Below, in pieces: positions 33,271 through 45,924 of a DNA stretch of 64,000 nucleotides. Under the pieces are notes generated by a model. That model did no database searches, was not told where the DNA came from, and saw only the letters and a program-made list of their open reading frames with translations. Both the position numbers and the translations under genes were made by a program. The stretch spans positions 496,001-560,000 of the forward strand of contig NZ_CP013372.1 of the NCBI RefSeq assembly GCF_001522585.2, in the 5' to 3' direction. This DNA comes from Burkholderia sp. NRF60-BP8. Its GTDB lineage: Bacteria; Pseudomonadota; Gammaproteobacteria; Burkholderiales; Burkholderiaceae. Numbering within the stretch: the first letter of the stretch is position 1; the number at the start of each line of letters is the position of its first letter.

Positions 33271-34242
33271 TTACCAGGGCCACGGAACGGAGGTTCCGGT
33301 GCCGTGGTCGAGGGCATGCCGATACAGGAAGCGCGCGACGGTCAGGTCCTGAAGCGCGAGCCCTGTCATGTCGAAGACGGTGATCTCGTGCGCGGCACGG
33401 TCGACCGATGTCGCACCCGCGAGGATGTCGCCGATTTCCGTACGCGGCAAATCGGGCGCCCACTGGCACTCGCCGATGCTGCGCGCCTGGTCGTGATCGT
33501 CCACGACGATGCGCGCGCGTTCCAGCACGCCCGCGGGAAGTTCGCGCTTGCCCGCGGTATCGGCGCCCACGCAGGTCAGGTGGGTGCCCGGCTGAACCGC
33601 ATCCGCGTCGAACAACGCGCCGCCGCCGGGCGTGGCCGTGATCACCACGTCGCTATGGGCGACCGCCTCGTTCCGGTCGCGCGCCACGCCGATCTCGCAC
33701 CGTTCGACGAAGTGCGATTCGAACGCCGGGTCCGGCTCGCCGCCGACGTTTACGTACTGCACCGTGCACCGCCGCGGCAGCAGCCTGAGCGCGTAGTCGA
33801 GCTGCACGCGCGCCTGCACGCCGGTGCCGAACACGCAGATCCGCGTGCTGTCGCGGCGCGCGAGCAGTTGCAGCCCGAGGCCGCCCGCGGCGCCGGTCCG
33901 CGCGGTGGTGATCGCGTTGCCGTCCATGATGCACAGCGGCCTGCCCGTCGCCGGATCGAACAGCGCGACGGTGGCCTGATGCGGTTCGCCGCCGCGTGCC
34001 CGATTGCCCGGCCAGAATCCGGCGGCCTTGAAGCCGAGCAGATCCTGACCGGCGACGTCGCCCGACTTGATGCCGAACACGCCGCCGGTATGCAGCTTCT
34101 CGCGTACCACCGGGAATACGCGTCCGGCCCGTTGACCGTGCAGCACGAAGGCTTCGCGGACGGCCGCCATCACTTGCCCGGCCTGCAGGGCGGGCTCGAC
34201 GGCATCGCGGTCGAGGAGAAGGAGGCGGGCGTCGGTCGGCAT
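33271..34242 (-). CDS. ornithine cyclodeaminase / mu-crystallin family protein
   Basis: 323 residues from ATG 34242. Rossmann motif ICVFGTGVQARVQLDYAL and the preceding ATVALFDPATGRPLCIMDGNAITTARTGAAGG are diagnostic of the family. VGADTAGKRELPAGVLERARIVVDD is the later catalytic region. Enzymes convert ornithine to proline or reduce cyclic imines and ketimines. The frame is open 28 codons upstream without a better ribosome site. Neighbouring D-threonine aldolase-like gene and LysR regulator suggest a small pathway for a D-amino or hydroxy-amino acid. Confidence 0.88.
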   Translation of the reverse strand: MPTDARLLLLDRDAVEPALQAGQVMAAVREAFVLHGQRAGRVFPVVREKLHTGGVFGIKSGDVAGQDLLGFKAAGFWPGNRARGGEPHQATVALFDPATGRPLCIMDGNAITTARTGAAGGLGLQLLARRDSTRICVFGTGVQARVQLDYALRLLPRRCTVQYVNVGGEPDPAFESHFVERCEIGVARDRNEAVAHSDVVITATPGGGALFDADAVQPGTHLTCVGADTAGKRELPAGVLERARIVVDDHDQARSIGECQWAPDLPRTEIGDILAGATSVDRAAHEITVFDMTGLALQDLTVARFLYRHALDHGTGTSVPWPW

Positions 34243-34347
34243 GGTCGGGGGCTGTTCGGCACGAGACGAATCGAGAATTTTTAAATTTTGTCCAGAACTG
34301 GACGAACAGTCAATGCCGGATGACACGGCACGGACGCCGGACTTCGC

Positions 34348-35478
34348 TCACCAGCCGTAGAAGCGCGGCCACGTCTGCGCGTCGCCGTCGTCGCCGATGG
34401 CCTGGTATTCGGGATGTTGCGCACCGGTGGCGCATGCGTGATTCGGCAGGATGCGCAGGCGCGTGCCGATCGGGAACCGCTGCGCGATACCCGTATCCGG
34501 CGCGCCCGTGCGCGACACGATCCCGTGTTCCTGGTTGGCGGCGCTCATCAGGTAGTCGCCGAGCACGTCGCCGGTTTCGGTGCAGATCTGCCCGTAGCCG
34601 AAATCGCGCGCCTGGCGCTGCGTGCCGCGGTCGCGGCTCATCGCCATCCAGCCCGCGTCGACGATCGCCCAGCCTTTCTCTTCCTGATGGCCGATGACGG
34701 TCGTCAGCACCGACAGCGCGATGTCGGACAGTGCGCACACGCCGATGTTGTGCATCACGAGGTCGAACATCACGTACACGCCGGCGCGCACTTCGGTCAC
34801 GCCGTCGAGCCGTTGCGCCGCCAGCGCGGTGGGCGTCGATCCGATACTCACGACCGGGCACGGCAACCCGGCGGCCCTCAGGCGCTCCGCGGCCCGCACG
34901 GTGCGGCTGCGCTCCTGTTCGGCGAGCGCGACCAGCGCCTCGGGCGTGTCGTATTCGTAGCTGGAGCCCGCGTGGGCCAGTACGCCGCCGAGCAGCATGC
35001 CGCCGTCGGTCAGCGCGCGGCCGACGTCGATCAGCCGGTCGGCTTCGGGCGGGATGCCCGAGCGGTGGCCGTCGACGTCGACCTCGATCCACACGTCGAA
35101 ACGTTCGCCGTGCTCGCGCCCGAAGGCGACGATCGCGTGCGCGGCCGGCAGGCTGTCGGCGACGATCTTCAGGTCGCAGCCCTGCCGGCGCAGCGCGAGC
35201 GCCTGGCCGAGCCTGGCGGGCACCATGCCGACCGCATAGACGATGTCGCGGATGCCGTCGGCGAAGAACTGCTCGGCCTCCTTGAGCGTCGACACCGTGA
35301 TGCCTTGCGCGCCCGCCGCGAGCTGCGCGTCGACGACGTGCCGGCATTTGGTGGTCTTGACGTGCGGCCGGAACCGGACGCCGAGTGCGTCGAGATGCGC
35401 CTGCATGCGCGCGATGTTGCGACGCATGCGGCCGACATCGATCAATGCGGCAGGGGTATTGAGCGTGTGAAGGTCCAC
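34348..35478 (-). CDS. D-threonine aldolase / D-serine dehydratase-like (alanine racemase fold type III) enzyme
   Basis: 376 residues. Fold-type III PLP barrel: TPAALIDVGRMRRNIARMQAHLDALG, then RPHVKTTKC with PLP Lys41. The C-terminal metal site PNHACATGAQHPEY provides His347 and Cys349, matching the Zn ligands of D-serine dehydratase/D-threonine aldolase enzymes. Reaction: aldol cleavage or dehydration of a D-beta-hydroxy amino acid (D-threonine, D-serine or 3-hydroxy-D-aspartate). Upstream of the cyclodeaminase-like gene with a 105-bp gap; a LysR gene lies further upstream on the same strand. Confidence 0.9.
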   Translation of the reverse strand: MDLHTLNTPAALIDVGRMRRNIARMQAHLDALGVRFRPHVKTTKCRHVVDAQLAAGAQGITVSTLKEAEQFFADGIRDIVYAVGMVPARLGQALALRRQGCDLKIVADSLPAAHAIVAFGREHGERFDVWIEVDVDGHRSGIPPEADRLIDVGRALTDGGMLLGGVLAHAGSSYEYDTPEALVALAEQERSRTVRAAERLRAAGLPCPVVSIGSTPTALAAQRLDGVTEVRAGVYVMFDLVMHNIGVCALSDIALSVLTTVIGHQEEKGWAIVDAGWMAMSRDRGTQRQARDFGYGQICTETGDVLGDYLMSAANQEHGIVSRTGAPDTGIAQRFPIGTRLRILPNHACATGAQHPEYQAIGDDGDAQTWPRFYGW

Positions 35479-37619: not shown

Positions 37620-37688
37620 GCATCGACTCCTTTCTGAACTTGCGTGAATGACCACGTGCTCTGCTGGCGGACAACTCATGAAACACGT

Positions 37689-37729
37689 GAAGTTGCATGA
37701 TAGGGCGATGGTATCATTCATGCAACTTC
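37689..37729. promoter_or_regulatory. Rrf2-type operator: 12-bp perfect inverted repeat
   Basis: GAAGTTGCATGA (37689-37700) is exactly mirrored by TCATGCAACTTC (37718-37729) with 17 bases between. ATGATA/TATCAT extends the similarity inward. It lies midway between the divergent thioredoxin-reductase-like (37619) and Rrf2-like (37759) starts. The half-site AAGTTGCAT resembles Rrf2/NsrR-type half-sites. Probably the autoregulatory site of the Rrf2 protein. Confidence 0.7.
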
Positions 37730-37758
37730 AGAAGTTTCGAGAAAGAGGAGTCCCGCCC

Positions 37759-38199
37759 GTGAGAACCGACAGCCGTTTGTCGCGCATGCTGCATGCGCTG
37801 ATCCACATGGACCAGGCCGACGGCCCGCTGACGTCGGAGACGATCGCGACGATGCTGTGCACGAACCCGGTCGTCGTGCGGCGCCTGCTCGGCGGGTTGC
37901 GCGATTGCGGGTACGTGCAGTCGGAGAAGGGGCACGGCGGCGGCTGGGCGCTGAGCGTCGCGCTCGACGACATCACGCTGCTCGACGTCTATCGCGCGGT
38001 GGGCGAGCCGCCGCTGTTTTCCGACCTGGTGTCCGAGGATGCGCCCGAGTGCCTGGTCGAGCAGGCCGTCAACGCGCATCTGACGGTGACGCTGAAGGAG
38101 GCCGAAGCCTCGCTGCTCGCGCGCTTCGGCGAAGTCACGCTCGGCATGCTGTCGCGCGATTTCGAAGCGAAGGCGGCCCGGCGGCGCAAGCCGCGCTGA
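37759..38199 (+). CDS. Rrf2-family transcriptional regulator
   Basis: 146 residues from GTG 37759, preceded by AGAGGAG at 37744-37750. The upstream in-frame ATG (37648) would place the operator inside the gene, so the GTG start is preferred. Winged helix: RTDSRLSRMLHALIHMDQADGPLTSETIATMLCTNPVVVRRLLGGLRDCGYVQSEKGHGGGW, then LLDVYRAVGEP as in Rrf2 proteins. The canonical three Fe-S cysteines of NsrR/IscR are not arranged here (Cys in LRDCG and PECL only), so it is likely a cluster-free redox regulator of the divergent reductase. Confidence 0.88.
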   Translation: MRTDSRLSRMLHALIHMDQADGPLTSETIATMLCTNPVVVRRLLGGLRDCGYVQSEKGHGGGWALSVALDDITLLDVYRAVGEPPLFSDLVSEDAPECLVEQAVNAHLTVTLKEAEASLLARFGEVTLGMLSRDFEAKAARRRKPR

Positions 38200-38450
38200 C
38201 GCGTCGCAGCATCGCGCTCGGGGCGCACCCGACTGGCGATTCGGCGCGGCCGAAACCGCTGCGCCGCGGTGTTCTGTCCCCCGACTTCTGCCCGGTTCGC
38301 CCGCCACAGGGCAAAATACGGGTTTTCCGCACCCGCGAGGGCGCGTTCGAATCACGCGCCGGGCGGCGGCAGTGCGCATTCCGCACGTTGCCGCCGGGCG
38401 CCCAGGCAAGATCGCTCGCCGTGCTGCGAGCCCACAGGAGTCCAGACCCC

Positions 38451-39053
38451 ATGCCCGAATCCAACCTGTCCTTCTTCGGCCGGCTGTCGCTGGCCGTCGG
38501 CACGTTCTTCTCCGTGCTCGGCAACCGCGAGTTCGCGGCCGAAGTGCTGCGCGTGCGCGACGGCGTCCCGACGGCGGCGCCGGTTGCCCCGGCCCCGGCA
38601 GCGCCGGCACCCGCTGCTGCGCCGGCACCGGCCGCGGCGCCCGTGAAGGCGCCGGCCCCCGAGCTGCGCGAAGCGAGCCCGCAAGCCGCGCTGCAACTGC
38701 TCGGCCTGCTGCAACGCGATGCACGCTTCATCGATTTCGTCGAGGAAGACATCGCCGGCTACGCGGACGCCGACATCGGCGCCGCCGCGCGCCTCGTGCA
38801 CGACGGCTGCCGCGCCGCGCTGCGCGAACACTTCACGATCGTGCCGGTGCGCGACGAGGCCGAAGGCAGCCGCGTGACGCTGCCGGCCGGCTTCGACGCG
38901 ACGGCCGTGCGCGTGACGGGTAACGTGGTCGGCGCCGCGCCGTTCACCGGCACCGTCAGCCATCGCGGCTGGCGCGTGTCCGACGTGCGCCTGCCGAAGC
39001 TGACGGGCAGCCACGACGCCTCGGTGATCGCGCCGGCGGAGGTGGAACTGTGA
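38451..39053 (+). CDS. DUF2760-domain protein, first gene of Hsp70-like operon
   Basis: 200 residues. The N-terminus (LSFFGRLSLAVGTFFSVLGNREFAAEVLRV) is weakly hydrophobic, residues 41-70 are an Ala/Pro linker, and the C-terminal domain (AALQLLGLLQRDARFIDFVEEDIAGYADADIGAAARLVHDGC, then RLPKLTGSHDASVIAPAEVEL) is the DUF2760 pattern. It always seems to accompany two Hsp70-like genes; the next gene's GTG overlaps its TGA. Function unknown; possible partner or cofactor of the chaperone-like pair. Start ATG 38451 follows CAGGAG. Confidence 0.85.
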   Translation: MPESNLSFFGRLSLAVGTFFSVLGNREFAAEVLRVRDGVPTAAPVAPAPAAPAPAAAPAPAAAPVKAPAPELREASPQAALQLLGLLQRDARFIDFVEEDIAGYADADIGAAARLVHDGCRAALREHFTIVPVRDEAEGSRVTLPAGFDATAVRVTGNVVGAAPFTGTVSHRGWRVSDVRLPKLTGSHDASVIAPAEVEL

Positions 39054-40891
39054 GCGATCCGCGCTATTCGATCGGCATCGACCTCGGGACGACCCATTGC
39101 GCGCTGTCGTACGTCGACAGCAGCACGAGCGACGGCGAAAAGATCGTGCAGCACGTGCTGCCGATCGCGCAGCTCACCGCGCCCGGCGCGCTGGAATCGC
39201 GCGACCTGCTGCCGTCGTTCCTCTATCTTCCGCATGAAAGCGAGCTGACGCAGGGCGACCTGACGCTGCCGTGGACGGCTTCGCGTGCGTTCGCGGTCGG
39301 CGAAATGGCGCGCACGCGCGGCGCCGGCACGCCGATCCGCCTCGTGTCGAGCGCGAAGAGCTGGCTGTGCCACCCGGGCGTCGACCGTCGCGCGGCGATC
39401 CTGCCGAGCGATGCACCGCCGGAAGTGGCACGCGTGTCGCCGCTGGAAAGCTCGATCCGCTACCTGACGCACCTGCGCGAGGCGTGGGACCACGCGCATC
39501 CGGACGCGCCATTCGCCGAGCAGGACGTGACGGTCACGATCCCCGCATCGTTCGATCCAGCCGCGCGCGAACTGACGGCGGAAGCCGCGCGGGCCGCCGG
39601 CTACTCGCGGATGACGCTGCTGGAAGAGCCGCAAGCGGCGCTCTACAGCTGGATCCAGAAGAGCGAAGGCGGCTGGCGCAAGCAGGTGCAGGTCGGCGAC
39701 CTGATCCTGTGCGTCGACGTCGGCGGCGGCACGACCGACCTGTCGCTGATCGCGGTGGTCGAGCGCGACGGCAACCTCGAACTGCATCGAGTGGCCGTCG
39801 GCGAGCACATCCTGCTCGGCGGCGACAACATGGACCTCGCGCTCGCGCACGTGGTCGCGCGCAAGCTCGCGCAGCAGGGCACGCAGGCCGATCCGTGGCA
39901 ACTGCGCGCGCTGACCTACGCGTGCCGCTCGGCCAAGGAAACGCTGCTGTCCGACCCGACCACCGATGCGGTGCCGCTCGTCGTGCCGAGCCGCGGCTCG
40001 AAGCTGATCGGCGGCTCGATCCGCACCGAGCTGACGCGCGCGGAACTCACGCAGACGATCCTCGAAGGCTTCTTCCCGCAAGTCGACGCCGCCGCGCGGC
40101 CGGTGAGCCGCGCGCGCGTCGGCCTGACGCAGCTCGGCCTGCCGTATGCGCAGGACGCCGGCATCACGCGCCATCTCGCGGCGTTCCTCGGCCGCCAGGT
40201 CGCGGCGCTCGACACGCTCGAAGGCGTCCAGCGCACGCTGCCGCCCGGCGCGACGTTCTTGCATCCGACCGCCGTGCTGTTCAACGGCGGCGTGTTCAAG
40301 TCGACGCTGCTCACGCAGCGCGTGCTCGACACGCTCAACGGCTGGCTCGCCGCCGAAGGCGCGCCGCCCGCGCGCCTGCTCGAAGGCGCCGATCTCGATC
40401 TCGCGGTCGCGCGCGGCGCGGCGTATTACGGCTACGTGAAGCGCGGCCGTGGCGTGCGCATTCGGGGCGGCACGGCGCGCGCGTACTACGTCGCGATCGA
40501 ATCGGCGATGCCCGCGGTGCCGGGGCTCGAACCGCCGGTGCAGGCGCTGTGCGTCGCGCCGTTCGGGATGGAGGAAGGCTCGGACGCGGCGCTGCCGCCG
40601 CAGGAGTTCGGCCTCGTCGTCGGCGAACCGGTGCAGTTCCGCTTCTTCGGTTCGTCGGTGCGCCGTCAGGATCAGGTCGGCACGTTGCTCGACTACTGGT
40701 CGCCGGACGAGCTGCAGGAACTCGAAGAAATCCAGGCGACGCTGCCCGCCGAAGGGCGTACGGTCGGCGAAGTCGTGCCGGTGAAGCTGCATGCGCGCGT
40801 GACCGAAGCCGGCACGCTCGAACTCGAGGCGATCCCGAGCGGCACGAACGAGCGCTGGAAGGTCGAGTTCGACGTGCGCGGCGCCGCCTGA
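39050..40891 (+). CDS. Hsp70/DnaK-family ATPase-like protein
   Basis: 613 residues from GTG 39050, overlapping the DUF2760 stop. Actin/Hsp70 motifs: phosphate 1 IGIDLGTTHCALSYVD, phosphate 2 CVDVGGGTTDLSLI, GGDNMDLALAHVVARKLAQQG, and the adenosine region VLFNGGVFKSTLLTQRVLD. It has the nucleotide-binding domain, but the C-terminal part is a short beta-rich region (RFFGSSVRRQDQVGTLLDYWSP) rather than a full DnaK lid, and there is no EEVD tail. Likely an ATP-dependent chaperone-like partner of the neighbouring Hsp70-DUF3731. Confidence 0.9.
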   Translation: MSDPRYSIGIDLGTTHCALSYVDSSTSDGEKIVQHVLPIAQLTAPGALESRDLLPSFLYLPHESELTQGDLTLPWTASRAFAVGEMARTRGAGTPIRLVSSAKSWLCHPGVDRRAAILPSDAPPEVARVSPLESSIRYLTHLREAWDHAHPDAPFAEQDVTVTIPASFDPAARELTAEAARAAGYSRMTLLEEPQAALYSWIQKSEGGWRKQVQVGDLILCVDVGGGTTDLSLIAVVERDGNLELHRVAVGEHILLGGDNMDLALAHVVARKLAQQGTQADPWQLRALTYACRSAKETLLSDPTTDAVPLVVPSRGSKLIGGSIRTELTRAELTQTILEGFFPQVDAAARPVSRARVGLTQLGLPYAQDAGITRHLAAFLGRQVAALDTLEGVQRTLPPGATFLHPTAVLFNGGVFKSTLLTQRVLDTLNGWLAAEGAPPARLLEGADLDLAVARGAAYYGYVKRGRGVRIRGGTARAYYVAIESAMPAVPGLEPPVQALCVAPFGMEEGSDAALPPQEFGLVVGEPVQFRFFGSSVRRQDQVGTLLDYWSPDELQELEEIQATLPAEGRTVGEVVPVKLHARVTEAGTLELEAIPSGTNERWKVEFDVRGAA

Positions 40892-40896
40892 GCACG

Positions 40897-43686
40897 ATGA
40901 AGCGTTATACGGTCGGCATCGACCTCGGTACGAGCAACACCGTCGTCGCATACGTCGAGGCCGGTTCCGACGCGATCCGCGTGTTCGACGTCGAGCAACT
41001 GGTCGGGCCGGGCGCGGTGGCCGCGCAGCCGCTGTTGCCGTCGGTGCGCTATCACCCGGCGGCGGGCGAGTTGCCGCCGGACGCGCTGCGCTTGCCGTGG
41101 CAGGCGGCCGGCGCGCGCGGCGCGCGCACCCATTCGAGCGGCGGCTCGGCCGGTCGTGACGGCGGTGCGGACGACGCGCCGCCGGCCGTGATCGGCCGTT
41201 ACGCGCGCACGCTCGGCGCGCAGGTGCCGGGCCGGCTCGTGTCGAGCGCGAAAAGCTGGCTGTCGCACGCGGCGGTCGACCGGCTCGCGGCGATCCTGCC
41301 GTGGGGCGCGGCCGACGGCGTCGACAAGGTGTCGCCGGTCGATGCGAGCGCGAGCTATCTCGCGCATGTGCGCGACGCGTGGGACGCGCACTTTCCCGAT
41401 GCGCCGCTCGCGAAGCAGGACGTGATCCTGACGGTGCCCGCGTCGTTCGACGACGGTGCGCGCGCGTTGACCGTCGAGGCCGCGCGACGCGCGAAGCTGC
41501 CGGCGCTGCGATTGCTGGAAGAGCCGCAGGCCGCGTTCTACGACTGGCTGTACGGCCAGCGCGACACGTTGCGCGACACCTTCGCCGCCGCGCGGCGCGT
41601 GCTGATCTGCGACGTCGGCGGCGGCACGACCGACCTCACGCTCGTCGACGTCGCGCCGGGCGACGACGGCGAGCCGACCTTCACGCGCGTCGGCGTCGGC
41701 AACCATCTGATGCTCGGCGGCGACAACATGGACCTCGCGCTCGCGCGCCTGATCGAGACGCGGCTGACCGAGCCCGGTACGCGGCTGTCGGCCGCGAGCC
41801 TGTCGCAACTCGTCGAGCGCTGCCGCGCGGCGAAGGAGCGGCTGCTCGGCGACGACGCGCCGGCGTCCGTCACCGTCACGCTGCTCGGCGCGGGCAGCAA
41901 GCTCGTCGGCGGCGCGCGCTCGGCCGAGCTGACACGGCAGGAAGTCGAGCGGATCGTCGTCGACGGGTTCTTTCCGCAGGTCGATGCCGGCGAACTGCCG
42001 CGCCGTGCGCGTGCCGCGATCGTCGAATTCGGCTTGCCGTATGCGAGCGACGCGGCCGTCACGCGCCACGTCGCCGCATTCCTGACACGTCATGCGGAAG
42101 GCCCGCTGCCGGACACGCTGCTGCTCAACGGCGGCGTGTTCCGCGCGGGCGCGCTCGCCGGCCGTCTCGCGCAGACGCTCGGCGCGTGGCGCGGCGCGCC
42201 GCTCGACGTACTGCACAACGCGCATCCCGACGTGGCCGTCGCGCGCGGCGCGGTGGCCTACGGGCTCGCGCGTGCCGGGCATGCGCCGCGCATCGGCGGC
42301 GGCTCCGCGCGCAGCTATTTCCTCGTGCTCGACGATGGCGCGGACGATGCGGCCGCACGCGGCGTCTGCCTGCTGCCGCGCGGTGCGGAAGAGGGCCGCG
42401 AGATCCGGCTCGACGATCGCACGTTCGCGCTGCAGCTCGGGCAGCCGGTGCGTTTTCACCTCGTGTCGACGGTGGCCGACACGCAATATCGACCCGGCGA
42501 TCTCGTCGATCTCGACGGCGGCGATTTCGTGCGGCTACCGCCGATCGCGACGGTCGTCGACGCGAAGGCGGGCAGCGACGCGCGCACGACGCCGGTGAAG
42601 CTCACCGCGTCGCTGACCGAGGTCGGCACGCTCGAAATGCATTGCATCGCGACCGACGACGCGACGCGCCGCTGGCGGCTCGAATTCCAGTTGCGCGGCG
42701 ATGCGCCGGTTCACGGCGACGATGCCGCGGCCACGCGGCATCCGCGTCTCGACCAGGCGATCGCGTTGATCGAGCGCTCGTTCGGCAGCAAGGCCGCGGG
42801 CGTGACGCCGAAGGACACGCGCCGGTTGCGCGCGCAACTCGAACAGGTGCTCGGCGCGCGCGAAGACTGGGACGTCGCGCTCGCACGCGAACTGTTCGAC
42901 GCCTTGCTTGCGCGGGCGCGGCGGCGGCGTCGCTCGGCCGATCACGAGCGCGCCTGGCTGAACCTTGCCGGGTATTGCCTGCGTCCGGGTTTCGGCCATC
43001 CGCTCGATGCGTGGCGCATCGAGCAGCTGTGGCCGCTGTTCGACGACGGCATTCAATACGTGACCGACGCCCAGGTGTGGTCCGAGTGGTGGACGCTGTG
43101 GCGGCGCGTGGCCGGCGGCCTCGACGACGCCGCGCAGACGCAGGTGCGCGACGCGATCGCGTTCCTCGAACCGTCCGACGACAAGCGGCGCAAGCTGCCG
43201 TTCGATCCGGCCAAGGTCGGTCCGGCCGACATGACGCGGCTGTCCGCGTCGCTCGAACGGCTGCCCGTCGAGCGCAAGGTCGAGCTCGCCGAGCGCCTGA
43301 TCGCGCAATTGCAGAAGCCGGCCGAACGTGCGTTGTGCGCATGGGCGCTCGGGCGGATCGGCGCGCGTCGGCCGTTCTACGGCAGCGCGCACGGCGTCGT
43401 GCCGCCGGAAATCGTCATCGGCTGGCTCGATGCGCTGTTCGCGCTCGACTGGAAGCAGGTCGAGCCCGCGGCGTTCGCGGTGGCACAGATCGCGCGGATG
43501 ACGGGCGACCGCTCGCGCGACCTGCCGGACGACACGCGTGAGGCCGTCGTCAAGCGCCTGGCGGCCGCGAATGCATCGGCGACGTGGATCGACATGGTTC
43601 GTGAAGCAATCGCGTTCGACGAAGCCGACACGGTGCGCGTATTCGGCGAGACGTTGCCGGCAGGGTTGAAGCTGCTGGCCGATTGA
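40897..43686 (+). CDS. Hsp70-family protein with C-terminal DUF3731 extension
   Basis: 929 residues from ATG 40897, 5 bases after the previous stop. Hsp70 ATPase motifs: VGIDLGTSNTVVAYVE, ICDVGGGTTDLTLVDV, GGDNMDLALARLIETRL, LLLNGGVFRAGALAGRL. The first 110 residues carry a low-complexity Gly/Ser/Asp insertion. From about residue 600 a long helical DUF3731 region follows (HPRLDQAIALIERSFGSKAAG, DTRRLRAQLEQVLG, AWLNLAGYCLRPGFGHPLDAWRI, WPLFDDGIQYVTDAQVWSEWWTLWRRVAGG). DUF3731 is a DnaK-related uncharacterised domain. No J-domain or nucleotide-exchange gene is nearby. Client and function unknown. Confidence 0.9.
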   Translation: MKRYTVGIDLGTSNTVVAYVEAGSDAIRVFDVEQLVGPGAVAAQPLLPSVRYHPAAGELPPDALRLPWQAAGARGARTHSSGGSAGRDGGADDAPPAVIGRYARTLGAQVPGRLVSSAKSWLSHAAVDRLAAILPWGAADGVDKVSPVDASASYLAHVRDAWDAHFPDAPLAKQDVILTVPASFDDGARALTVEAARRAKLPALRLLEEPQAAFYDWLYGQRDTLRDTFAAARRVLICDVGGGTTDLTLVDVAPGDDGEPTFTRVGVGNHLMLGGDNMDLALARLIETRLTEPGTRLSAASLSQLVERCRAAKERLLGDDAPASVTVTLLGAGSKLVGGARSAELTRQEVERIVVDGFFPQVDAGELPRRARAAIVEFGLPYASDAAVTRHVAAFLTRHAEGPLPDTLLLNGGVFRAGALAGRLAQTLGAWRGAPLDVLHNAHPDVAVARGAVAYGLARAGHAPRIGGGSARSYFLVLDDGADDAAARGVCLLPRGAEEGREIRLDDRTFALQLGQPVRFHLVSTVADTQYRPGDLVDLDGGDFVRLPPIATVVDAKAGSDARTTPVKLTASLTEVGTLEMHCIATDDATRRWRLEFQLRGDAPVHGDDAAATRHPRLDQAIALIERSFGSKAAGVTPKDTRRLRAQLEQVLGAREDWDVALARELFDALLARARRRRRSADHERAWLNLAGYCLRPGFGHPLDAWRIEQLWPLFDDGIQYVTDAQVWSEWWTLWRRVAGGLDDAAQTQVRDAIAFLEPSDDKRRKLPFDPAKVGPADMTRLSASLERLPVERKVELAERLIAQLQKPAERALCAWALGRIGARRPFYGSAHGVVPPEIVIGWLDALFALDWKQVEPAAFAVAQIARMTGDRSRDLPDDTREAVVKRLAAANASATWIDMVREAIAFDEADTVRVFGETLPAGLKLLAD

Positions 43687-43781: not shown

Positions 43782-44786
43782 TCAGGCGTGCGGCACCGCA
43801 TCGTGCCGCTTTTCCGCCGGTTCGACTGCGACGCCGTCACGCGGCGCCGTCGAACGCCGCGCCAGATGAATCGCCGCGAGCATGCAGCGCACCGACCCGC
43901 CGGCCAGTTCGATCGTCGGCACGTCGAGCGGCAGCAATCGCGCGGAGCGCTCGATCGTCGCACGCTGCGCCGGCGCGAGGCAATCGTATGCGCGCCGCGA
44001 CAATGCGAGCACGCGGCCATCCTTCCCCGACAATTCCAGCGTATTGCCCGCGAAATTCGCGATCTGCGCGTGATCGAGTGCGATCACCGCGCGCCCCGTT
44101 TCGGTCAGGCGTTGCGCGATCTCGCCGCGGCGGCGGCTGTCGGCGATCAGGTCGAGGCCGACCATCGCGAACTCGGTGGCGATGCTCATCATCACGTTCG
44201 TGTGATAGATCGGCTTGCCGTTCGCATCGGCCGTGTCGAAGCAGATCGGCTCGAAGTTGAAATTCGTGCAGAAGCGTTCGAGCGCGACCGGATCGGCACG
44301 CCGCGAGCGCGCGGCGTACGCGATCCGCGCGACGTGGTCGAGCACCATCGCGCCGGTGCCTTCCAGGAACACGTCGTCGTATTCGAGGCCCGAGTAGTCG
44401 ATCACGTCCTGCACGCGATACTCGGCCTTCAGCATCTCGATCACGTCCGCGCGCCGCTCGCGGCGGCGGTTCGGGCAGTGCATCGGATACAGCGCGACAT
44501 GGCCGCCCGGGTGCGTCGAGAACCAGTTGTTCGGGAACACGGAGTCGGGCGTGTCGCGCTCGCCGTGGTCGTCGAACACGTGCACGCGCACACCCGCATC
44601 GGCGAGCGTGCGCGCGGCGGCCGTGACTTCGTCGCGCGCGGCGGCCGACACCGCCGGCGTGTCGCCCGCGCCGCCGCCGGCCGTGCGCTGGAACGCATTG
44701 TCGGCCGCGGTCTGCGGGTTCGGCAGGAAGCGGTGCGGCCGGATCATCACGACGGCGGACGGCGCCTGGATCGATACGAGATTCAT
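43782..44786 (-). CDS. ctlX: CtlX-like arginine-deiminase-superfamily hydrolase (citrulline utilisation)
   Basis: 334 residues. Guanidino-group-modifying (GME) superfamily motifs: FPNNWFSTHPGGHVALYPMHC, GTGAMVLDHVARIAYAARSRRAD, PIYHTNVMMSIATEFAMV, and the C-terminal nucleophile region ELAGGSVRCMLAAIHL (Cys301). Best match in memory is CtlX, a hydrolase for ureido-containing amino acids such as citrulline. Ornithine produced could enter the downstream ornithine cyclodeaminase and become proline. Cytoplasmic; on the same strand as the cyclodeaminase, 58 bp after it. Confidence 0.85.
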   Translation of the reverse strand: MNLVSIQAPSAVVMIRPHRFLPNPQTAADNAFQRTAGGGAGDTPAVSAAARDEVTAAARTLADAGVRVHVFDDHGERDTPDSVFPNNWFSTHPGGHVALYPMHCPNRRRERRADVIEMLKAEYRVQDVIDYSGLEYDDVFLEGTGAMVLDHVARIAYAARSRRADPVALERFCTNFNFEPICFDTADANGKPIYHTNVMMSIATEFAMVGLDLIADSRRRGEIAQRLTETGRAVIALDHAQIANFAGNTLELSGKDGRVLALSRRAYDCLAPAQRATIERSARLLPLDVPTIELAGGSVRCMLAAIHLARRSTAPRDGVAVEPAEKRHDAVPHA

Positions 44787-44844
44787 GAAGAGCGGGAGCG
44801 AAGGGCGGAAAACGGGCGGCGTACAGGCCGCCCGCGCGGCACGG

Positions 44845-45924
44845 TCAGCGCGCGAACGCGGCGACGGCTTCGGTCACGAACGCCGCGTGACCGTGCGCGA
44901 TCGCGGCCGGATCGTCAATCAGCGCGAACAGGTTCTTCGGATCGACGGCCGGCGGAATCAGCGCGATCTCGACGCCCGCGTTGTGCTGCTGCGCGAGCGC
45001 ATACAGGTAGCGCAGCGCCGAGTAATCCTCGAGCGCGAACCCGACCGAGTCGAACACCGTGACCTCGCTCGCGCGCTCGCGGCCGGCCGTCTCGCCTTGC
45101 AGCACGCGCCACAACTCGACGACGGGGAAGTCGCCCGGCATCTGCTGGATCTCGCCCTCGATGCGCGATTGCGGTTCGAATTCGACGAATACGCGGCCCG
45201 CGTTCAGCACGCCCGCCTCGAGCTCGGTCTTGCCCGGGCAATCGCCGCCGACGGCGTTCAGATGCATGCCGGGCTCGATCATGTCGGCCGTGACGATCGT
45301 CGCGTACGCCTTGTCGGCGGTGACGGTCGTCACGATGTCGGCGCCGCGCACGGCGTCGGCGGTCGATGCAGCGCGCACGACGCGCAACTTCGGATACGCG
45401 GCGAGGTTCTGCACGAGCTTGTCGGTCGCGCGCGGATCGACGTCGAACACGCGGATTTCGTCGATGCCGAGCAGCGTGTGGAACGCGATCGCCTGGAATT
45501 CGCTTTGCGCGCCGTTGCCGATCAGCGCCATCGTGCGCGAATCGGGCCGGGCGAGCGCCTGCGCGGCGAGGACCGACGTCGCGGCCGTGCGCAGCGCGGT
45601 GGTGAGCGTGAGTTCGGCGAGCAGCAGCGGGTAGCCGGTATCGACTTCGGCGAGCGCGCCGAACGCCATCACCGTGTGCATGCCGCGCGCCGCATTGACG
45701 GGGTGGCCGTTCACGTACTTGAACGCGAACAACGACGCGTTCGCGACGGGCATCAGTTCGATCACGCCGTCGCGCGAGTGGCACGCGACGCGCGGCGACT
45801 TGTCGAAATCGGCCCAGTGCAGGTAATCGGCGCGCAGCGTGTCGACGAGTTCGCGCAAGAACGTCGTGACGCCGGTTCGGGCGACCAGGCGGGCGGTGGC
45901 GGGAACGTCGAGGAAGCGAGTCAT
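44845..45924 (-). CDS. ornithine cyclodeaminase
   Basis: 359 residues. Ornithine cyclodeaminase features: VACHSRDGVIELMPVANASLFAFKYVNGHP, TALRTAATSVLAAQALARPDSRTMALIGNGAQSEFQAIAFH (Rossmann, NAD), NAVGGDCPGKTELE and the C-terminal VTVFDSVGFALEDYSALRYLY. It converts ornithine to proline and ammonia. Length and the VGGDCPGKTELE motif match the long OCD type. Upstream on the same strand of ctlX and divergent from an Lrp/AsnC regulator. Confidence 0.92.
   Translation of the reverse strand: MTRFLDVPATARLVARTGVTTFLRELVDTLRADYLHWADFDKSPRVACHSRDGVIELMPVANASLFAFKYVNGHPVNAARGMHTVMAFGALAEVDTGYPLLLAELTLTTALRTAATSVLAAQALARPDSRTMALIGNGAQSEFQAIAFHTLLGIDEIRVFDVDPRATDKLVQNLAAYPKLRVVRAASTADAVRGADIVTTVTADKAYATIVTADMIEPGMHLNAVGGDCPGKTELEAGVLNAGRVFVEFEPQSRIEGEIQQMPGDFPVVELWRVLQGETAGRERASEVTVFDSVGFALEDYSALRYLYALAQQHNAGVEIALIPPAVDPKNLFALIDDPAAIAHGHAAFVTEAVAAFAR

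Follow-up and report, generated by a model that had tools for sequence, protein, structure and literature searches.

A conserved three-gene locus of Burkholderia encodes two lidless Hsp70s and a DUF2760 protein with a predicted GrpE-like fold

We analysed a 64,000-nucleotide stretch of Burkholderia sp. NRF60-BP8 (contig NZ_CP013372.1, positions 496,001 to 560,000; hereafter the window; G+C 69%), in which three plus-strand genes form a compact locus. By the open reading frame list and Pfam, gene A (38451-39053, ATG start, 200 aa) encodes a DUF2760 protein, gene B (39050-40891, GTG start, 613 aa) overlaps A by 4 bp and encodes a lidless Hsp70, and gene C (40897-43686, ATG start, 929 aa) lies 5 bp past B and encodes an Hsp70 fused to DUF3731, in agreement with the layout given in an earlier note on this DNA. 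We considered it somewhat probable that the trio is a self-contained Hsp70 machine of the inner membrane, in which the lidless B and C would be served by A as a membrane-held, GrpE-like exchange factor. Hsp70 machines are known as a kind, and this composition appears to be new.

Both B and C matched Pfam PF00012 above cut-off (E 2.8e-17 and 2.8e-16), bearing out the two divergent Hsp70s of a chaperone-like operon that the earlier note had described. Their best named NCBIfam match was the HscA profile (75 and 92 bits versus a cut-off of 709), and their other matches, DnaK-like or actin-like, were all far below cut-off. Residues of the phosphate, catalytic, and adenosine motifs of the ATPase domain (D8, T11, K70, E171, D194, T199, D201, K270, and G342) were retained in 16 of 16 B and 15 of 15 C sequences. 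The two proteins had been regarded as bare ATPases, a description that fell short, since each also carries a substrate-binding beta domain, in C according to the structural model (amino acids 1 to ~610 for both domains) and in B according to the alignment. The alpha-helical lid and acidic EEVD tail of canonical DnaK were missing from both, as had been noted: B ended at about DnaK residue 505, and the match of the C model with DnaK reached about residue 504, the protein going on into DUF3731. The hydrophobic interdomain linker of DnaK was replaced in both proteins, and known structures were at most 25% identical to C among the 50 structural matches listed.

DUF3731 of gene C (amino acids 680-926, 42934-43674, plus strand; PF12531, E 1.8e-101) is a C-terminal helical domain occupying the position of the Hsp70 lid. 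The structural search with the C model barely covered it, and a profile search for a solved structure returned only two chance-level rows. Other Pfam families were matched in only one or two of 17 members, the best being Neugrin (E 0.011) and HEAT_EZ (0.038).

The surfaces through which DnaK meets its J-protein were also altered. At N170 and T173, which we take to be J-protein contact positions of DnaK, the residue was E in 31 of 31 and Q in 28 of 31 sequences respectively. R167, a published DnaJ contact of DnaK (PMC8215388), was kept in only 1 of 16 B and 8 of 15 C sequences. No DnaJ gene was near the trio, as previously claimed; of the genome's three J-domain matches the nearest, also on the trio's contig, is ~411 kb distant. 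The trio is on contig C1 of three, and grpE, dnaK, and dnaJ are together on C2. Of the seven PF00012 matches in the genome, four are B, C, DnaK, and HscA, and the other three are shorter, by eye two MreB-like and one YegD-like; the second MreB-like gene (G000:C1:2065313-2065612, L007) is on the trio's contig, the usual copy being L003.

The three genes were inherited as one module. In a general sample of 299 evenly drawn Pseudomonadota genomes, PF12531 occurred in 21 and PF10816, the family of gene A, in 22, with one match per genome and the 21 nested within the 22; in the remaining genome (G026) the contig ended at the expected start of C. The locus was examined in 19 of these 22 genomes, as 20 stretches, and A-B-C stood in the same order on the same strand in 17 of the 19, the exceptions being G053, split across two contigs, and the cut G026. 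A scan of named genomes, from which the best 80 of 572 loci were used, all of them from Burkholderiales, gave a complete A-B-C in 76 of 80. In three others (L084, L089, L138) C starts and then runs off the contig end, and L088 stops inside B. The 4-bp A-B overlap was present in 76 of the 79 loci having both genes, and the B-C gap was 5 bp in 43 of 76 with automatic choice of starts, the largest real gap being 1251 bp (L125); a 350-bp gap in L118 was an artefact of start choice, and B and C of the draft L097 look broken. Within the window's genus, 63 of 65 genomes had PF12531, at one match each, and the two misses are assemblies of ~830 and 1100 contigs; of 300 genomes drawn from the order, only 14 had it. 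With the three genes and their order kept across other families and classes, the arrangement goes far beyond what chance would give.

Within the trio, A and B are the tighter pair, because B and C are parted by other genes in Comamonas-type loci (L047:8553-11473, L125:12258-13510), by eye by an opposite-strand porin, and because Candidatus Thiodictyon syntrophicum plasmid pTs485 carries a DUF2760-Hsp70 pair (L141:11716-14234) but no DUF3731 gene anywhere on the plasmid. In the Comamonas-type loci C is probably transcribed separately. The B-C interval of L047 also holds a cation-antiporter-like gene.

Gene A had been listed as an uncharacterised domain, a view that its predicted fold revised. 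The protein matched PF10816 (DUF2760) with a Pfam E of 2e-54. Hydrophobic or amphipathic helices are predicted, at low confidence, at about amino acids 6-36, and by this prediction A would be anchored at the membrane. A Pro/Ala linker follows (38-72), which was modelled as disordered (predicted local distance difference test score below 50) at the place of the long N-terminal coiled-coil stalk by which GrpE dimerises; in Vibrio-like members a PVEKIVEV-type repeat takes the linker's place. The remaining domain (77-200) is predicted to be helical with a beta-wing, in a GrpE-like fold, and it ends in a conserved tail, (I/V/L)APAEVEL. A Foldseek search with the A model returned 42 matches (E up to 10) with no GrpE among them; in a second structural comparison, covering 328 chains, GrpE entries ranked first by a clear step. 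On the models, an exchange factor is probably present in the trio as gene A. The earlier statement that no GrpE is near therefore held for canonical GrpE, whose single match in the genome stands by dnaK on the other contig, and not for a protein with a GrpE-like predicted fold.

The sequence evidence for a link between A and GrpE was weak, and this, together with the state of the GrpE-facing residues of B and C, weighs against the exchange-factor proposal. PF01025 had no match in 39 and 7 scanned sequences, and profile searches of NCBIfam and the PDB were likewise silent. The hhalign P values between the A family and GrpE were 0.59 and 0.6 with 16 canonical GrpEs, 0.21 with nine divergent ones, and 0.077 with both. 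In local or end-free shuffle tests the A-GrpE score was reached by 114 of 300 shuffles, by 79, 399, and 386 of 400, and in further tests by 44, 28, 84, 72, 22, and 14 of 120. Global alignment of the whole A domain with the matching GrpE part, picked after the fold result, did better, its scores being reached by 0, 2, 0, 3, 3, and 2 of 150 shuffles (three profiles at two gap settings). As a further control, 106 windows were taken from B and C in both forward and reversed form: two, each from B, scored above the GrpE z of 3.0, and four reached a z of 2.5. A 25-GrpE alignment has five invariant columns, and in the first global alignment four of them (D, G, G, V) matched the DUF2760 residue. The GrpE contact and latch positions of DnaK were mostly not retained in B and C, so that a GrpE-like A would require co-divergence. 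The argument for A as a GrpE relative thus rests on the structural ranking and the operon context, sequence alone being insufficient.

A dedicated GrpE partner has parallels elsewhere. A review gives GrpE as the sole known type of bacterial Hsp70 exchange factor, with one gene per genome (PMC4753570). We searched 60 genomes and found second GrpE genes in several, which means that the rule of a single GrpE per genome has exceptions. Nine weak second copies (Pfam, 52.9-72.2 bits) were examined, three stronger ones (G022, G037, G041) being left out, and an Hsp70 gene followed directly in 9 of 9 (L182-L190, e.g. L182:6182-8619). Four of the nine pairs belong to family f36, by inference Magnetococcales. 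These apparently are separate two-gene Hsp70 systems. They resemble the trio in having a dedicated GrpE gene directly ahead of an Hsp70 gene, but their GrpEs are recognised by Pfam and their Hsp70s, at 337-397 bits, are much closer to DnaK than B and C are. Given such pairs, it is not far-fetched that B and C should have a GrpE-like partner of their own.

The machine that we propose would work as follows. The N-terminal transmembrane or amphipathic helix of A and its flexible linker would tether the protein to the cytoplasmic side of the membrane. The beta-wing of A would then prise apart the ATPase cleft of B and/or C, so that ADP leaves and the Hsp70s are reset after ATP hydrolysis, close to clients in the membrane or bound to it. 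DUF3731 would take the place of the lid in C, and hydrolysis might be triggered by the client itself, by DUF3731, or by a J-protein encoded elsewhere. The exchange activity of A, cooperation between B and C, independence from DnaJ, and clients at the membrane are what we infer from this arrangement. More tentatively, the trio may represent an additional class of Hsp70 machine in bacteria, in which a paralogous lidless pair would work without a J-protein, a tethered, highly diverged GrpE would recruit it to the membrane, and DUF3731 would replace the function of the lid or of the J-protein.

The lack of a significant sequence link, in profile searches and hhalign alike, would also fit a protein A with a new fold that serves as membrane scaffold or client adaptor, recruiting the Hsp70s through its C-terminal tail; nucleotide exchange would then be GrpE-free, as in Escherichia coli HscA and HscC, both described in the review as independent of GrpE (PMC4753570). 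The tail, (I/V/L)A(P/Q)AE(V/I)EL, was kept in 80 of 80 Burkholderiales proteins, as a docking peptide might be. It lies, however, on a predicted beta strand (196-199), where GrpE ends too, and the scaffold interpretation leaves the first place of GrpE in the second structural comparison to be accounted for; we judged it rather unlikely. Less probable still is that C relates to B as eukaryotic Hsp110 does to Hsp70, with C as exchange factor and holdase, B as the working Hsp70, and A as anchor only. Here too there are two Hsp70-type proteins of unequal length, and C has a likeness to Hsp110 in structure only, but B and C both keep the checked catalytic residues, the extra C-terminal domain is DUF3731, and the trio has a separate GrpE-like protein.

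That the trio is an accessory stress or defence module of mobile elements, acting mainly in phage or plasmid conflict, seemed very improbable. It would explain why the whole trio adjoins trb genes on the 110-kb conjugative plasmid pCC829_3 of Bradyrhizobium barranii (L140:9719-15128) and why the Thiodictyon A-B pair has annotated anti-phage genes (DUF499, DUF3780, DUF1156, phospholipase D-like) on one side and a TIR-domain gene on the other. The weak match of B to the PADLOC candidate PDC-M61B (E 4e-6), which could be read likewise, spans just 92 residues of the ATPase core. The near-constant presence of the trio in the genus, at one match per genome, speaks against an accessory role, as do its unrelated flanks elsewhere. 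Gene A had no match in the phage collection, and its 33 pattern matches in viral contigs included no true relative, so that phage or virus cargo was rejected.

Compared with DnaK-DnaJ-GrpE, the trio shares the Hsp70 ATPase and substrate-binding beta domains and a GrpE-like predicted partner, but it has a pair of Hsp70s that both lack the lid, its locus contains no J-protein gene, the J-contact positions are changed, and its GrpE-like protein bears a membrane or amphipathic segment. HscC with the tail-anchored DjlB and DjlC (PMC8215388) is another specialised Hsp70 that, together with co-chaperones of its own, is proposed to act at the plasma membrane; the anchored partner there is a J-protein, whereas in the trio it is the GrpE-like protein, and no membrane J-protein of the DjlC kind lies beside the Hsp70 genes, the nearest J-domain match being the one ~411 kb off. 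The iron-sulphur chaperone HscA-HscB has a dedicated Hsp70 too, and no named NCBIfam profile matched B and C better than that of HscA, but the trio's locus has no J-protein gene, and the HscA-like and J-domain matches of the genome adjoin elsewhere.

In a joint tree, B and C grouped together against DnaK and HscA (support 100/100), and all 16 B sequences formed one clade (100/100). The tree, computed without C_L123 (wrong reading-frame start), did not settle the monophyly of C. From the B-C grouping and the single B clade, the duplication is older than the sampled lineages, and by this phylogeny B and C are old paralogues. They might also form the dimer-like ATPase pair suggested in the earlier note. 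Named holders of gene A were Vibrio, Marinomonas, and a Magnetococcales bacterium, other group labels being inferred. The Bradyrhizobium plasmid copies grouped with those of Magnetococcales for A (100/99), B (100/100), and C (100/97), and from these agreeing groupings the three genes were transferred together; both trees carry long-branch warnings. In Bradyrhizobium sp. CB82 (L139) the trio stands before groES-groEL.

Burkholderia and many Paraburkholderia share a conserved 20-nt element upstream of the operon (38307-38326, plus strand; G000:C1:534307-534326), as seen in alignments of 10 and 13 such regions. Its core was found in 51 of the 80 Burkholderiales loci, and it is the single site in the whole genome at up to two mismatches. 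It may be the promoter of the trio. No heat-shock promoter was seen by eye upstream of the trio. An Rrf2-family regulator (37648-38199) on the strand of gene A ends 251 bp upstream of A.

The flanks of 34 loci, the window included, were compared all versus all. Beyond the trio and antisense shadows, no recurrent family occurred in more than four lineage groups, and those identified were generic (GGDEF, ABC ATPase, aldehyde dehydrogenase), so that genomic context gave no function. In the window the operon lies in an amino-acid metabolism neighbourhood with no evident link to it: D-serine-dehydratase-like and, by eye, second cyclodeaminase-like genes precede it (33271-35478, minus strand), and ornithine cyclodeaminase-like and DDAH-like genes follow (43782-45924, minus strand). 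Three of four Vibrio-like loci have a related opposite-strand gene just upstream of the trio (L040:4255-5793, L041:4073-5623, L042:3815-5428), in L040 a CHASE-GGDEF diguanylate cyclase. Gene A and C proteins were up to 96% and 95% identical to those of other Burkholderia, the cepacia complex included.

The claim that the trio has no established function stood, no paper naming DUF2760 or DUF3731 being found in a search of open-access literature, with most subscription journals outside its scope. A metagenomic Hsp70 fragment described in PMC9717686, of uncertain family, was not drawn on. If the proposal is true, these bacteria would have an added chaperone machine with its own, probably membrane-tethered, GrpE-like partner, and two DUF families would gain a function. 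It would also place a second, dedicated, membrane-bound GrpE branch beside the one-type view of the review (PMC4753570). The vague annotation 'Hsp70 family protein', present across nearly all of the genus (63 of 65 genomes), would become a testable question, namely whether A releases ADP from B or C.
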